This document shows positions 29,011-59,458 of a DNA stretch of 64,000 nt, one piece after another. Under the pieces are notes generated by a model. The model worked only from the letters and a program-made list of their open reading frames with translations. It did not search any database and was not told the origin of the DNA. Both the position numbers and the translations under genes were made by a program. Source of the DNA: Leifsonia williamsii (lineage in GTDB: Bacteria > Actinomycetota > Actinomycetes > Actinomycetales > Microbacteriaceae); the NCBI RefSeq assembly GCF_030433685.1, contig NZ_JAROCF010000001.1, positions 1,550,001 to 1,614,000 on the forward strand, given 5' to 3'. The stretch's first letter is position 1; each line of letters starts with the position of its first letter.

Positions 29011-29098
29011 TGGCGGAGAATGGGGGATTCGAACCCCCGAGGGCTTGCACCCAACACGCTTTCCAAGCGTGCGCCATAGGCCACTAGGCGAATTCTCC
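29011..29098 (-). tRNA. tRNA-Ser (anticodon GGA)
   Basis: Read on the minus strand, the acceptor arms GGAGAAT (5') and ATTCTCC (3') pair perfectly, followed by G and an encoded CCA. The anticodon loop TTGGAAA sits on a CACGC/GCGTG stem and gives GGA, which reads UCC and UCU. The T arm is GGGGGTTCGAATCCCCC, and the long variable arm expected for serine is present. Total length is 88 bases. Confidence 0.95.
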
Positions 29099-29187
29099 TG
29101 GGTCGCCATCCCCCTGCGGGAGACGGCTTGAAGTATCTTACCGGACGCCGGGAGCGCTCGCTGCACCACGCTCCCAGCGTCACCCGC

Positions 29188-29193
29188 TACACT
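29188..29193 (+). promoter_or_regulatory. -10 hexamer of the SRP RNA gene
   Basis: TACACT lies 7 bases before the first base of the RNA. No clear -35 is seen. Confidence 0.5.
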
Positions 29194-29200
29194 TGTTCTC

Positions 29201-29290
29201 GGCTCCTCACGTGGCGCCATCCAGGCCAACTCCCCCAGGGCGGAGACGCAGCAAGGGTAACCGGGCTCTGGCGGGTGCGTGAGGGGTCTT
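29201..29290 (+). ncRNA. ffs: Signal recognition particle RNA, small bacterial type
   Basis: The core hairpin of the SRP RNA is visible: CAGG, then GCG-GAGA-CGC capped by a GNRA tetraloop, then AGCA, which form the Ffh-binding symmetric loop. The outer helix pairs CCTCACG (5') with CGTGAGG (3'). GCAAGGGTAACCGGGCTCTGG matches the conserved 3' side. It ends in TTTTCTTTT at 29289-29297, an intrinsic terminator. About 90 bases long, it targets ribosomes making membrane proteins to FtsY. It is independent of neighbours. Confidence 0.9.
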
Positions 29291-29335
29291 TTCTTTTAAG
29301 CAGCGCGTCAGTCCCACCCCGTAGAGTGTGCCCCA

Positions 29336-44477: not shown

Positions 44478-45968
44478 GTGAGCACTTCTCCCATCGACGT
44501 CGTCCTGATCGGCGGCGGCATCATGAGCGCGACGCTGGGGTCGCTGATCCAGCGCGTGCAGCCCGACTGGAGCATCCGGATCTACGAGCGTCTGGGCGCC
44601 GTCGCCCAGGAGAGCTCGAACCCCTGGAACAACGCCGGTACCGGGCACGCCGCCCTCTGCGAGCTGAACTACATGCCCGAGGCCTCCGACGGGTCCGTCG
44701 ACCCGGCCAAGGCCATCAGCATCAACGAGCAGTTCCAGCTGAGCCGCCAGTATTGGGCGAGCCTCGTCGCCGCCGGTGACCTCCCGGAGCCGAACAGCTT
44801 CATCAACCCGACCCCACACATGACGTTCGTGCGCGGCCGCGACAACGTCCGCTACCTGCGCAAGCGCTTCGAGGCGCTCAAGGAGCAGCCGCTGTTCGAG
44901 GACATGGAGTACTCGGAGGACCCGGCCGTCATCGGCGAGTGGACCCCGCTGCTGACCAAGAAGCGCAACGCCAAGCAGCGCATCGCGGCCACCCGCTCCA
45001 CGTCGGGCACCGACGTCGACTTCGGCGCGCTGACCCGCTCGCTCGTCGACAACCTCGTGGAGCGCGGCGCCGAGCTGGCGCTCAACCACCAGGTGCGCAG
45101 CATCAAGCGCACCAAGGACGGCCTGTGGCGGCTCAAGGTCATGCACGAGGTCGGCAAGAACCAGTCCGAGGTCACGGCCCGGTTCGTGTTCGTCGGAGCG
45201 GGTGGAGGCGCGCTGCACCTGCTGCAGAAGTCCGGTATCCCCGAGATCAACGGCTTCGGCGGCTTCCCGATCTCCGGCCAGTTCCTCCGCACCACGAACC
45301 CGAAGATCGTCGCGCAGCACCAGGCGAAGGTTTATGGCAAGGCCGCCGTCGGCGCGCCTCCGATGTCCGTCCCGCACCTCGACACCCGCGTCGTCGACGG
45401 CGAGACCTCGCTGCTGTTCGGCCCGTACGCCGGGTTCAGCCCGAAGTTCCTCAAGACCGGCTCGTGGTTCGACCTGCCGGGCTCCGTGCGCGCGGGCAAC
45501 CTGGGTCCGATGCTCGCGGTCGCACGCGACAACTTCGACCTGATCAAGTACCTGGTGGGCGAGCTGCTCGCCAACCGCGCCAAGAAGCTCCGGGCGCTGC
45601 AGGAGTTCATGCCGACGGCGAAGAGCGAGGACTGGGAGCTCATCACCGCCGGCCAGCGCGTCCAGGTCATGAAGAAGGACGCCAAGAAGGGCGGCGTGCT
45701 GCAGTTCGGCACCGAGGTCGTCGCGGCGGAGGACGGCTCGATCGCGGGTCTGCTCGGCGCGTCACCAGGCGCCTCCACCGCCGTGCCGATCATGCTCGAT
45801 CTGCTCAAGCGCTGCTTCCCCGACCGTTATGACGGCTGGGTGCCGACGCTCAAGGGGCTGATCCCGACCATGGGTACGACGCTGAACGACCGGCCGGAGG
45901 AGGCGCGGCGCGTGCTGGCCGAGACCGCCGACACGCTCGGCCTGGCGCAGAAGGCGCTGACCGAGTAA
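44478..45968 (+). CDS. mqo: Malate:quinone oxidoreductase
   Basis: A 496-residue peripheral membrane flavoprotein that oxidises malate to oxaloacetate and passes electrons to menaquinone. The FAD site starts DVVLIGGGIMSATLGSLIQ; NPWNNAGTGHAALCELNYMPE, FVFVGAGGGALHLLQKSGIPEINGFGGFPISGQFL and LFGPYAGFSPKFLKTGS are diagnostic. It links the TCA cycle to respiration and replaces or supplements cytosolic malate dehydrogenase. The GTG start is fixed by the -10 spacing. It is monocistronic. Confidence 0.97.
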   Translation: MSTSPIDVVLIGGGIMSATLGSLIQRVQPDWSIRIYERLGAVAQESSNPWNNAGTGHAALCELNYMPEASDGSVDPAKAISINEQFQLSRQYWASLVAAGDLPEPNSFINPTPHMTFVRGRDNVRYLRKRFEALKEQPLFEDMEYSEDPAVIGEWTPLLTKKRNAKQRIAATRSTSGTDVDFGALTRSLVDNLVERGAELALNHQVRSIKRTKDGLWRLKVMHEVGKNQSEVTARFVFVGAGGGALHLLQKSGIPEINGFGGFPISGQFLRTTNPKIVAQHQAKVYGKAAVGAPPMSVPHLDTRVVDGETSLLFGPYAGFSPKFLKTGSWFDLPGSVRAGNLGPMLAVARDNFDLIKYLVGELLANRAKKLRALQEFMPTAKSEDWELITAGQRVQVMKKDAKKGGVLQFGTEVVAAEDGSIAGLLGASPGASTAVPIMLDLLKRCFPDRYDGWVPTLKGLIPTMGTTLNDRPEEARRVLAETADTLGLAQKALTE

Positions 45969-46015
45969 TCGCACCGGATCGCAGGATCCGCTGGACAGGC
46001 CCGGCGACCGGCTGT

Positions 46016-46195
46016 TATGGTCGTCGGGCTATGAAGTGAGAACCTCCACTCGTCCCGCGCCTGAGGCGCCGTCGACCCGAGTGACGTGGTCGCTTCGAGC
46101 GATCATCGCGTTCACAGCGCTCCAGCGCAGCTCGGTGACGGCATGTGCCCGGCGGGAGTCGGCTCCATCCGGAGCGCCCGGAAGGCGGTTCTCAT
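46016..46195 (+). promoter_or_regulatory. Attenuator-like leader of the ABC-F gene with a two-codon ORF
   Basis: TATGGT (46016-46021) fits a -10, followed by a minimal ORF, ATG AAG TGA (46031-46039). Its stop overlaps GTGAGAACC (46036-46044), which can pair over nine positions with GGTTCTCAT (46187-46195), the stretch from just past the ribosome site into the ABC-F start codon. A ribosome held on the mini-ORF would free the start. A small stem GCGCC/GGCGC (46057-46069) lies between. Confidence 0.5.
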
Positions 46196-47825
46196 GCCCA
46201 CGACCACTACTCTCTCCCCTCTGCGCGCCGACGGCGTCTCGCTGTCGTACGGCGACCGCCGCGTGCTCACCGACGTCTCGCTCACGGTCGGCCCCGGCAC
46301 CCGGCTGGGTCTGATCGGCGAGAACGGCGTCGGCAAGTCCACCCTGCTGCGCGTGCTCGCCGGCGTCGAGACCCCGGACTCCGGCGTCGTCTCGCGGCCG
46401 CAGCGCCTCGGCTTCCTCTGGCAGGAGGTCCGGTTCGCGCCCGAGGAGACCCTCGGCGCGCTGATCGAGGACGCCCTCGCCGAGGTGCGCGCCATCGAGC
46501 GGGAGCTGGAGGAGGCCGCGGCGGCGCTCGCGGACGACGCGACAGTCTCCACCGGGGCCTCCACCCGTTATGACGACGCCCTGGCCGCTGCCGAGCGCGC
46601 GGAGGTGTGGAGCATCGACGCGCGCCGCGACGAGCTGCTCGCCGGCCTCGGCGTCGGCGCGATCCCATTCGACCGCCGCGTCGGCGAGGTGTCCGGCGGC
46701 CAGCGGTCGCGGTTCGCGCTCGCCGCGCTGCTGCTCGCCCGCCCCGACGCCCTGCTGCTCGACGAGCCGACGAACCACCTCGACGACCAGGCGGCCGCGT
46801 TCCTCGAGCGGCAGCTGCTCGGCTGGAGCGGGCCCGTCGTGTTCGCCAGCCACGACCGCGCCTTCCTCGACGCGGTCGCCAGCGGGCTGCTCGACCTCGA
46901 CCCGGCGCGCTCCGGCACGACGGTTTTCGGGGGAGGCTACAGCGACTACCTGGCCGCGAAGGCGGCGGAGCGGGCGCGCTGGGAGAAGCAGTTCGCCGAC
47001 GAGCAGGACGAGCTGAGGGCGCTCCAGCACGCCGTCGACGTCACTGCGCGCTCCATCGCCTGGTCGGGCAAGGTGCGCGACAACGACAAGTTCGTGAAGT
47101 CGGTGAAGGGCAACGCGCTCGACCGTCAGATCAGCAGGCGCATCAAGAACGCCTCCGGGCGGCGCGAGGAGCTGGAGCGCACCCAGGTGCGCAAGCCGCC
47201 TGCCGTGCTCAGCTTCGCGGGCATCCCGTCCGGCTTCCAGCCGCTCGGCGACGAGACGGGACTGCTGGTGCAGGCCCGCGACGTGCGGGTGCCAGGGCGG
47301 CTGGCGGTCGACGCGTTCTCCGTCGAGCCGCAGTCGCGTCTCCTCGTCACCGGTGCGAACGGCGCCGGCAAGTCGACGCTGCTCGCCGCGGTGGCGGGGA
47401 GGCTGGAGCCGGCCGCCGGCAGCATCCAGCGGCGGCGCGGGCTGCGGGTGGGGCTGCTGGAGCAGGACGTCCGCTTCCCGGACCCCGCGGCGTCCCCGCG
47501 GCGGATCTACGCAGAGACGCTCGGAGAGCGGAGGGCGGAGGCTGTGCCGCTGACCTCCCTCGGCCTGATCGCTCCCCGCGACCTGGACCGCCCGGTGGGA
47601 GCGCTGTCGGTCGGCCAGCAGCGCCGCCTCGCGCTCGCGCTGATCCTCGCCCGGCCGCCGCACCTGTTCCTGCTCGACGAGCCGACCAACCACCTGTCGC
47701 TGAACCTCGCCACCGAGCTCGAGGAGGCCCTGGGCGCCTACCCGGGAGCGGTCGTCGTCGCCAGCCACGACCGCTGGCTGCGCTCGAGGTGGAGCGGGGA
47801 GGAGGTGGCGCTGCGCGCCGCTTGA
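46194..47825 (+). CDS. ABC-F family ribosome-associated ATPase
   Basis: A 543-residue cytoplasmic protein with two ABC domains and no membrane segment. The first has GENGVGKSTLLRVL, VSGGQRSRFALAALLL and LLLDEPTNHLDD; the second has GANGAGKSTLLAAV, LSVGQQRRLALALIL and LLDEPTNHLSLN. A charged linker joins them. ABC-F proteins bind the ribosomal E site; resistance members dislodge macrolides, lincosamides or pleuromutilins, others are housekeeping factors. GGAAGG precedes ATG 46194. The structured leader suggests a drug-induced resistance type. The drug class cannot be told. Confidence 0.92.
   Translation: MPTTTTLSPLRADGVSLSYGDRRVLTDVSLTVGPGTRLGLIGENGVGKSTLLRVLAGVETPDSGVVSRPQRLGFLWQEVRFAPEETLGALIEDALAEVRAIERELEEAAAALADDATVSTGASTRYDDALAAAERAEVWSIDARRDELLAGLGVGAIPFDRRVGEVSGGQRSRFALAALLLARPDALLLDEPTNHLDDQAAAFLERQLLGWSGPVVFASHDRAFLDAVASGLLDLDPARSGTTVFGGGYSDYLAAKAAERARWEKQFADEQDELRALQHAVDVTARSIAWSGKVRDNDKFVKSVKGNALDRQISRRIKNASGRREELERTQVRKPPAVLSFAGIPSGFQPLGDETGLLVQARDVRVPGRLAVDAFSVEPQSRLLVTGANGAGKSTLLAAVAGRLEPAAGSIQRRRGLRVGLLEQDVRFPDPAASPRRIYAETLGERRAEAVPLTSLGLIAPRDLDRPVGALSVGQQRRLALALILARPPHLFLLDEPTNHLSLNLATELEEALGAYPGAVVVASHDRWLRSRWSGEEVALRAA

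Positions 47826-59381: not shown

Positions 59382-59458
<77 letters not shown>

Follow-up and report, generated by a model that had tools for sequence, protein, structure and literature searches.

A two-codon leader ORF as a candidate peptide-independent translational attenuator of an ABC-F gene in Leifsonia

The locus and its ABC-F gene

Can a reading frame that consists of a start codon, one further codon and a stop control the gene behind it? The question is raised by a 64,000 nt stretch of the Leifsonia williamsii genome (the window), in which the mini-ORF ATG-AAG-TGA (Met-Lys; 46031-46039) precedes a gene for an ABC-F ATPase. A sequence-only reading of this DNA had singled out a -10-like TATGGT, the mini-ORF, two complementary arms and the ABC-F ATG, and all the letters of these elements were found where it had placed them. 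All features of the locus given here lie on the plus strand.

The ABC-F gene (46194-47825, ATG at 46194-46196) encodes a 543 aa protein that is nearest to the TlrC/CarA/OleB/SrmB ribosomal-protection group. It scores 434 bits against the NCBIfam model of this group, below the curated cut-off of 800, and 332 bits against the general ribosomal-protection model with its cut-off of 380, and the relatives returned by a search of solved structures are EttA and resistance ABC-Fs. Judged from its sequence, with scores under the curated resistance cut-offs, the gene is a candidate antibiotic-resistance gene. PADLOC matches look like generic ATPase matches and were set aside. At the gathering threshold the window's Rfam matches are confined to 29014-29294 and 59385-59458, where two tRNA genes lie on the minus strand and a small SRP RNA gene on the plus strand, and none falls on the leader; the leader loci of seven relatives gave no Rfam match at E<=1.

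Conservation of the mini-ORF

ABC-F orthologues were found in 26 of 28 Leifsonia genomes, the 25 others being 76-82% identical to the window's protein, and a close orthologue is absent from two small genomes of 2.6-2.7 Mb. The mini-ORF proved to be conserved in these relatives: ATG-AAG-stop stands in the same place in 26/26 genus orthologues, 21 of them ending in TGA and five in TAG. Where the stop is TAG, TGAG has become TAGG in four leaders, and the fifth (L017) has a 1-nt deletion with the stop preserved. From the stop onward the genus leaders mostly read GAGAACCTCC, GATCACCTCC or GGAATCTCC, which we take to resemble the 3' end of the 16S rRNA, i.e. the anti-Shine-Dalgarno.

The exact DNA pattern of the genus leader, from which the window's own leader deviates, was matched in 8 of 398 family genomes, all of them Leifsonia (8 of the 10 genus members drawn). 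Since this pattern is confined to the genus, homology beyond it was traced through the ABC-F orthologues, which are present at E<=1e-110 in 79/299 genomes and 31/78 genera of the family. There are 72 matches outside the genus, of which 63 upstream regions were examined and nine left out (eight partial matches and G232). An ORF of 2-5 codons occupies the position of the mini-ORF in 62 of the 63. Most of these have three codons (53 leaders), the remainder two (5), four (3) or five (1); they start with ATG (26) or GTG (36), stop with TGA (34), TAA (15) or TAG (13) and encode 28 different peptides, including MKL, MKN, MK, MKI, MKR, MKF, MLL, MIS, MRL, MWL and MFS. The mini-ORF was placed by eye in 17 leaders, L171 was excluded from the counts (hairpin absent, ORF uncertain), L147 was retained though its hairpin was not found, and the ABC-F start was reassigned by hand in L011, L124 and L134 and later also in L190. 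The comparison indicates that a short ORF upstream of the ABC-F gene is probably kept by selection.

A contig search of related loci returned at least 80, one from Leifsonia and mostly from distant ABC-F genes; the Pseudonocardia and Streptomyces leaders mentioned below were drawn from it. Two leaders ahead of other Leifsonia ABC-F genes (L029 and L030), read by eye, contain six-codon ORFs, MHLYFL-stop and MGTLFL-stop, beside a -10-like site, and these paralogues may answer other drugs.

Promoter and predicted transcript start

TATGGT (46016-46021) forms part of an extended -10 element, TGTTATGGT (46013-46021), with TG before the hexamer, and a -35-like TGGACA (45992-45997) lies 18 nt upstream of it. 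This is the only sigma-70-like site that a promoter scan found between 45800 and 46400 (shuffle mean 0.0). CTGGACA occupies the same place in many, not all, Leifsonia relatives, and TGnTAnnnT precedes the mini-ORF in 26/26 genus leaders, the inner bases of the hexamer varying as expected for an extended -10. In the other genera TAnnnT is found 6-11 nt ahead of the mini-ORF start in 58/62 leaders, 21 of these with TGn. In Leifsonia 9-10 nt separate the -10 from the start, in the other genera mostly 7-10 nt. Such gaps imply a predicted 5' UTR of about 0-4 nt, and the transcript of the window leader is predicted to start at about 46027-46031.

An inverted repeat flanks the -10 in the window (46000-46030) and occurs at the same place in L002-L026, with near-perfect arms in L012 and L013. 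The arms of the 26 genus leaders match their own partners better than swapped ones (8.2 vs 7.4 +/- 0.16, 0/20,000 swaps); the advantage of own arms is absent from 48 other-genus leaders (2854/20,000).

Pairing of the ORF region with the ABC-F start

The anti-start arm, GTGAGAACCTCC (46036-46047), overlaps the second codon, the stop and bases beyond. Its partner would be the ribosome-binding region of the ABC-F gene, GGAAGG...GGTTCTCAT (46180-46195). As the sequence-only reading had it, GTGAGAACC (46036-46044) and GGTTCTCAT (46187-46195) form nine pairs, one of them G-U, that reach into the ABC-F ATG. Folding the RNA returned this helix in the predicted minimum-free-energy structure, but the fold as a whole is not unusually stable (z -0.83; 36/200 shuffles as good). 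Shuffled arms pair with the window's start region at least as well in 50/5000 cases, but random 23-mers of the GC-rich window pair equally well or better in 887/3000, which is not above chance, and the window pairing alone was therefore not taken as proof. Between the two arms, ahead of the start region, lies a genus hairpin, GCTCC...GGAGC (46162-46175), in which 95.2% of cells are paired in the genus, with no double changes.

The compensatory changes foreseen for the two arms are seen across genera but not within Leifsonia. Counted together with two additional pairs, the nine-pair helix is preserved in 83.9% of the genus cells. One inner pair is broken in 15 of 25 distinct rows, and covariation does not exceed that of shuffles; the helix was dropped as covariation evidence at this level. 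The wider comparison relies on a swap test of the ORF region, taken from the mini-ORF start codon as far as 14 nt past the stop: the energy of its pairing with the start region of its own ABC-F gene is set against that with swapped start regions. Own pairs are stronger in all 88 leaders (-14.5 vs -11.7 +/- 0.28 kcal/mol, 0/20,000) and with one leader per genus (n=29; -15.1 vs -11.5 +/- 0.52 kcal/mol, 0/20,000). For a fixed 26-nt segment z is -8.5 in the 62 non-genus leaders and -6.7 in the 29 genera (-15.0 vs -11.5 +/- 0.5 kcal/mol). As controls, seven segments from elsewhere in the leader reached z -2.0 to +0.8 in the 29 genera, and the arm set against four other regions gave z -1.3 to +0.8. 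Two further segments score in the 62 non-genus leaders, which are the less independent set: one before the presumed transcript start (z -3.6) and one at +104 (z -2.7, 19 leaders). Within the genus the swap signal is weak (164/20,000; fixed segment 245/20,000, z -2.3). When the 29 start regions are ranked for each leader, 17 leaders have their own partner in the first five places and eight have it at 13th place or worse; in L146 it comes last. Long pairings are exemplified by L119, where ACCTTCTTTCG pairs with CGAAAGAAGGT, and by L121, where ACCACCCTTC pairs with GAAGGGTGGT.

The earlier proposal that a ribosome on the mini-ORF frees the ABC-F start was followed by computation. To imitate a ribosome footprint, the leader was forced to be single-stranded between its presumed 5' end and position +17 of the mini-ORF, and the cost of opening the ABC-F start was calculated. 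The mean cost over 88 leaders drops from 11.8 to 7.9 kcal/mol, by at least 2 in 63 of them; with 20-nt control masks placed elsewhere the average decrease is 0.5 kcal/mol, and it reaches at least 2 in 14/80 leaders, a further eight being too short to take such a mask. The window's leader gives 12.8 kcal/mol without a mask, 8.1 with the footprint mask and 14.2 under control masks. Among the leaders printed, L012, L125 and L126 barely respond. As computed from covariation across genera, and not within the genus, and from the mask, RNA pairing appears to hide the ABC-F start and to conflict with a ribosome on the ORF.

The leader could instead work by transcription attenuation, its hairpins acting as a terminator or as a pause for RNA polymerase and a stalled ribosome altering elongation into the gene. 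Control of this kind has been published for lmrC, are5sc and vmlR, and the Leifsonia leader does contain a conserved hairpin, P1, that could play such a part. However, the interval 45800-46400 holds no terminator-like site, and a run of T after P1 is absent in the window. Moreover, the ORF region covaries with the ABC-F start region and not with the 26 nt upstream of it or with the coding sequence that follows. The leader may yet hold a Rho site or a terminator that lacks a T run, and transcription attenuation as the main mode of control is considered unlikely.

A hairpin measured from the start codon

In the window P1 is formed by TCCCGC (46053-46058), 22 nt past the mini-ORF start, and GCGGGA (46152-46157). 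It encloses a conserved loop segment, GCCTGAGGC (46059-46067; family consensus GYCYGAGGC), and a facing segment, GCCCG (46147-46151); the final GGC of the former pairs with 46147-46149 (P2). Across the leaders P1 usually begins 9-14 nt past the mini-ORF stop and encloses GYCYGAGGC ... GCCCG. P1 is invariant in the genus, and covariation is uninformative there. An alignment of 24 leaders, namely 23 of the 29 short-hairpin leaders and L119 (L135, L142, L160, L163, L169 and L174 being omitted), has 97.7% of cells paired, a figure biased towards structure by locating P1 through maximal pairing. Double changes occur at 5/6 P1 pairs and in 24 cells, vs 5.6 in shuffles, and when the partner is shifted by one column pairing falls below 50%.

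When the hairpin was searched for without reference to the ORF it was present in 75/89 upstream regions, and 73 of these 75 hairpins have a start codon with a stop within five codons at 21-26 nt upstream. The same criterion was satisfied by 0-4 of 75 in twelve control windows placed 31-186 nt upstream and by a mean of 2.7 (maximum 9) in 200 shuffles. Outside the genus it holds for 48/50 hairpins in 24/25 genera.

The distance from the start codon to P1 is 21-24 nt in 73/79 leaders with ORFs of two to five codons, a count that omits nine of the 88 leaders, together with L171, in which P1 is unclear. It is 22 nt for 27 of 30 two-codon ORFs, 21-24 nt for 39 of 45 three-codon ORFs (16, 25 or 26 nt in the rest) and 22 nt for every ORF of four codons (three leaders) or five codons (one leader). 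Averaged per genus, it amounts to 21.8, 22.7, 22 and 22 nt for two, three, four and five codons (4, 20, 1 and 1 genera, the last two classes thus standing for one genus each), and the mean distance from stop to P1 declines from 12.8 through 10.7 and 7 to 4 nt. The search procedure for P1 favours a fixed distance from the stop, i.e. it is biased against a spacing measured from the start. The sequence-only reading had left open whether initiation or termination on the mini-ORF is the event that counts; because the spacing of P1 follows the start codon and not the stop, it favours, as far as sequence comparison goes, a ribosome held at initiation on the mini-ORF AUG as the sensed state. For the leader ORF of vmlR, the toeprint of a 30S subunit is reported to lie 16 nt downstream of the start-codon A (PMC9226507), from which it follows that a ribosome positioned at the start would extend to about six bases short of P1 and would cover most of the arm.

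A competing possibility is that the leader senses how translation of the Met-Lys minigene ends, by termination or by drop-off, or else the supply of Lys-tRNA, and not initiation. Two-codon minigenes are described as able to release peptidyl-tRNA at the stop (PMC8708949), and AAG is the second codon in 26/26 genus leaders and in 41 of the 62 others. The hairpin is nevertheless spaced from the start and not from the stop, and a different second codon is found in the other 21 of the 62 leaders, on which account Lys-specific sensing is not favoured and the alternative as a whole is held to be quite improbable; AAG as second codon may simply favour initiation. That the conserved block acts solely as RNA, through its structure or by binding a protein, and that ATG-AAG-TGA within it is accidental and untranslated, would fit the nucleotide-level conservation within the genus and the covariation of P1 across genera, but it is very improbable given that an ORF is kept while its start (ATG/GTG), stop (TGA/TAG/TAA) and length (2-5 codons) vary and that control windows contain so few such ORFs.

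Proposed mechanism

It is proposed that the leader is a translational attenuator of an ABC-F ribosome-protection gene that responds to drugs of the peptidyl-transferase centre independently of the peptide encoded, a reading to which we assign a probability of roughly three in four (0.77), the drug class and the direction of regulation being the parts that we infer. The mini-ORF, the promoter, the covariation of arm and start across genera and the spacing from start to hairpin emerge from sequence comparison as conserved features, around which the following course of events would be built. The transcript would begin a few bases ahead of the Met-Lys-stop ORF. In the absence of drug, ribosomes would load at the near-5'-terminal AUG, complete the two codons and depart, after which the bases of the ORF and those behind its stop would pair with the emerging Shine-Dalgarno and start region of the ABC-F gene and keep translation low. 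A drug that blocks the first peptide bonds at the peptidyl-transferase centre (of the lincosamide, streptogramin A or pleuromutilin class) would hold the initiating ribosome on the AUG. The footprint of the held ribosome, about 16 nt downstream, would then cover the anti-start arm, the ABC-F start would be open and the protein made. Release of the start region by the footprint is the computed step of this scheme, and arrest at the AUG, the predicted transcript start and a mainly translational mode of control are presumed parts of it. Two codons would suffice because the peptide itself is irrelevant. The hairpin would perhaps act as a pause or as an insulator.

Relation to known leaders

One of the closest parallels by description is are5sc of Streptomyces coelicolor, which like the Leifsonia gene is an actinobacterial ABC-F gene with an ultra-short leader ORF (three codons, MLV) and for which LSAP drugs are reported to stall ribosomes at the uORF start codon in toeprints (PMC12421871). 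Unlike the Leifsonia leader it has a TTG start with its own ribosome-binding site, and the drug is reported to induce transcription; a hairpin and a start-region pairing of the Leifsonia type are not mentioned in the available part of that account (PMC12421871). In Firmicutes, ultra-short leader ORFs likewise control ABC-F genes, namely cplR (MRI), vmlR (MIN), vmlR2 (MK[L/Q], which begins with Met-Lys as in Leifsonia) and lsaA (MAGN), and cplR is described as combining transcriptional and translational attenuation (PMC10201436, PMC9226507). As described, these ORFs have three or four codons, that of vmlR is led by a Shine-Dalgarno and cplR and vmlR have intrinsic terminators, whereas the Leifsonia ORF has two codons and a near-5'-terminal start and no terminator-like site was found around it (45800-46400). 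In lmrC of Streptomyces lincolnensis, likewise an ABC-F gene of an actinobacterium, LSAP drugs act through ribosome-mediated attenuation, but the control is reported to be of the terminator/antiterminator type, with constitutive expression upon disruption of uORF2 (PMC8546547). The axe-txe minigene shares with the Leifsonia leader a two-codon ORF that acts in cis on a downstream gene; it differs in belonging to a toxin-antitoxin leader, for which mRNA protection is proposed and drug sensing is not described (PMC8708949).

ABC-F leader ORFs of three or four codons and cis-regulating two-codon minigenes outside resistance are therefore already known, and what appears to be new here is the two-codon form, the near-5'-terminal position, the hairpin measured from the start and the spread across the class. 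A two-codon ABC-F leader, this hairpin and ABC-F leaders of Microbacteriaceae were not met among the open-access papers listed. Consisting of a start, one codon and a stop, the Leifsonia mini-ORF would come close to the smallest size possible for a regulatory gene. If the leader does sense stalled initiation independently of the peptide, this would explain how one leader can answer several drug classes, and the leader offers a compact system for testing a ribosome held at the start codon, rather than a nascent peptide, as the signal.

The leader element beyond the family

The conserved hairpin lends itself to model-based searches of actinobacteria, which may reveal further genes induced by ribosome-targeting drugs. 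A covariance model built from the 24 leaders matched 30 of 246 genomes of the class (16/96 genera) at E<=0.01. The model is insensitive to long hairpin loops and misses the window's own leader, its only matches in that genome having E values of 0.34 and 0.56 and lying elsewhere. Among the 17 best class loci (L182-L198), 14 stand ahead of an ABC-F-like gene, two (L183 and L187) ahead of a 58-residue protein and one ahead of neither; the ABC-F identity of the 14 comes from a profile for L182, L185, L188, L191 and L198 and from sequence reading for the rest. Twelve class matches have an E value above 1e-3, and of the seven inspected one (L204) precedes an ABC-F gene.

Pairing between leader and gene start is seen here as well. 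In 13 class loci of five genera the swap test gave -16.8 vs -14.8 +/- 0.67 (8/20,000), and in L182 the partner of ACACCTGAT, whose first base is the last of the stop, is ATCAGGTGT, in which the GTG start lies. The ORF takes further forms. The Pseudonocardia pini leader (L044) encodes MRH-stop, and in L188, L193 and L195 GATGTGATCTGA holds both GTG-ATC-TGA and, two bases earlier, ATG-TGA, a bare start-stop, either of which may be used. Initiation at AUGUG sequences has been reported in E. coli (PMC9841429).

It is tentatively suggested, as a possibility that falls somewhat short of even odds, that a class-wide actinobacterial RNA element, hitherto undescribed, senses arrested initiation complexes as such. 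It would comprise an ORF of 2-5 codons close to the 5' end (in one genus perhaps a bare AUG-UGA), the peptide of which would not matter, and a hairpin (GYCYGAGGC / GCCCG) about 22-23 nt from the start that a start-positioned ribosome would nearly abut. The arm containing the ORF would hide the start of the gene. The targets of the element would be several ABC-F genes and, perhaps, a further small conserved gene.

The leaders of L183 and L187 consist of GTG-ATC-CTC-TGA and the hairpin, and the conserved 58-residue protein begins 192 and 215 nt past the mini-ORF start; this protein, which ends in QYRRH, matches no Pfam family at the cut-off. In L041 (Streptomyces), L202 and L204 an upstream gene that reads like an ABC-F ends (...GAG-GTG-TGA) ahead of the hairpin core, as if its stop had replaced the mini-ORF.
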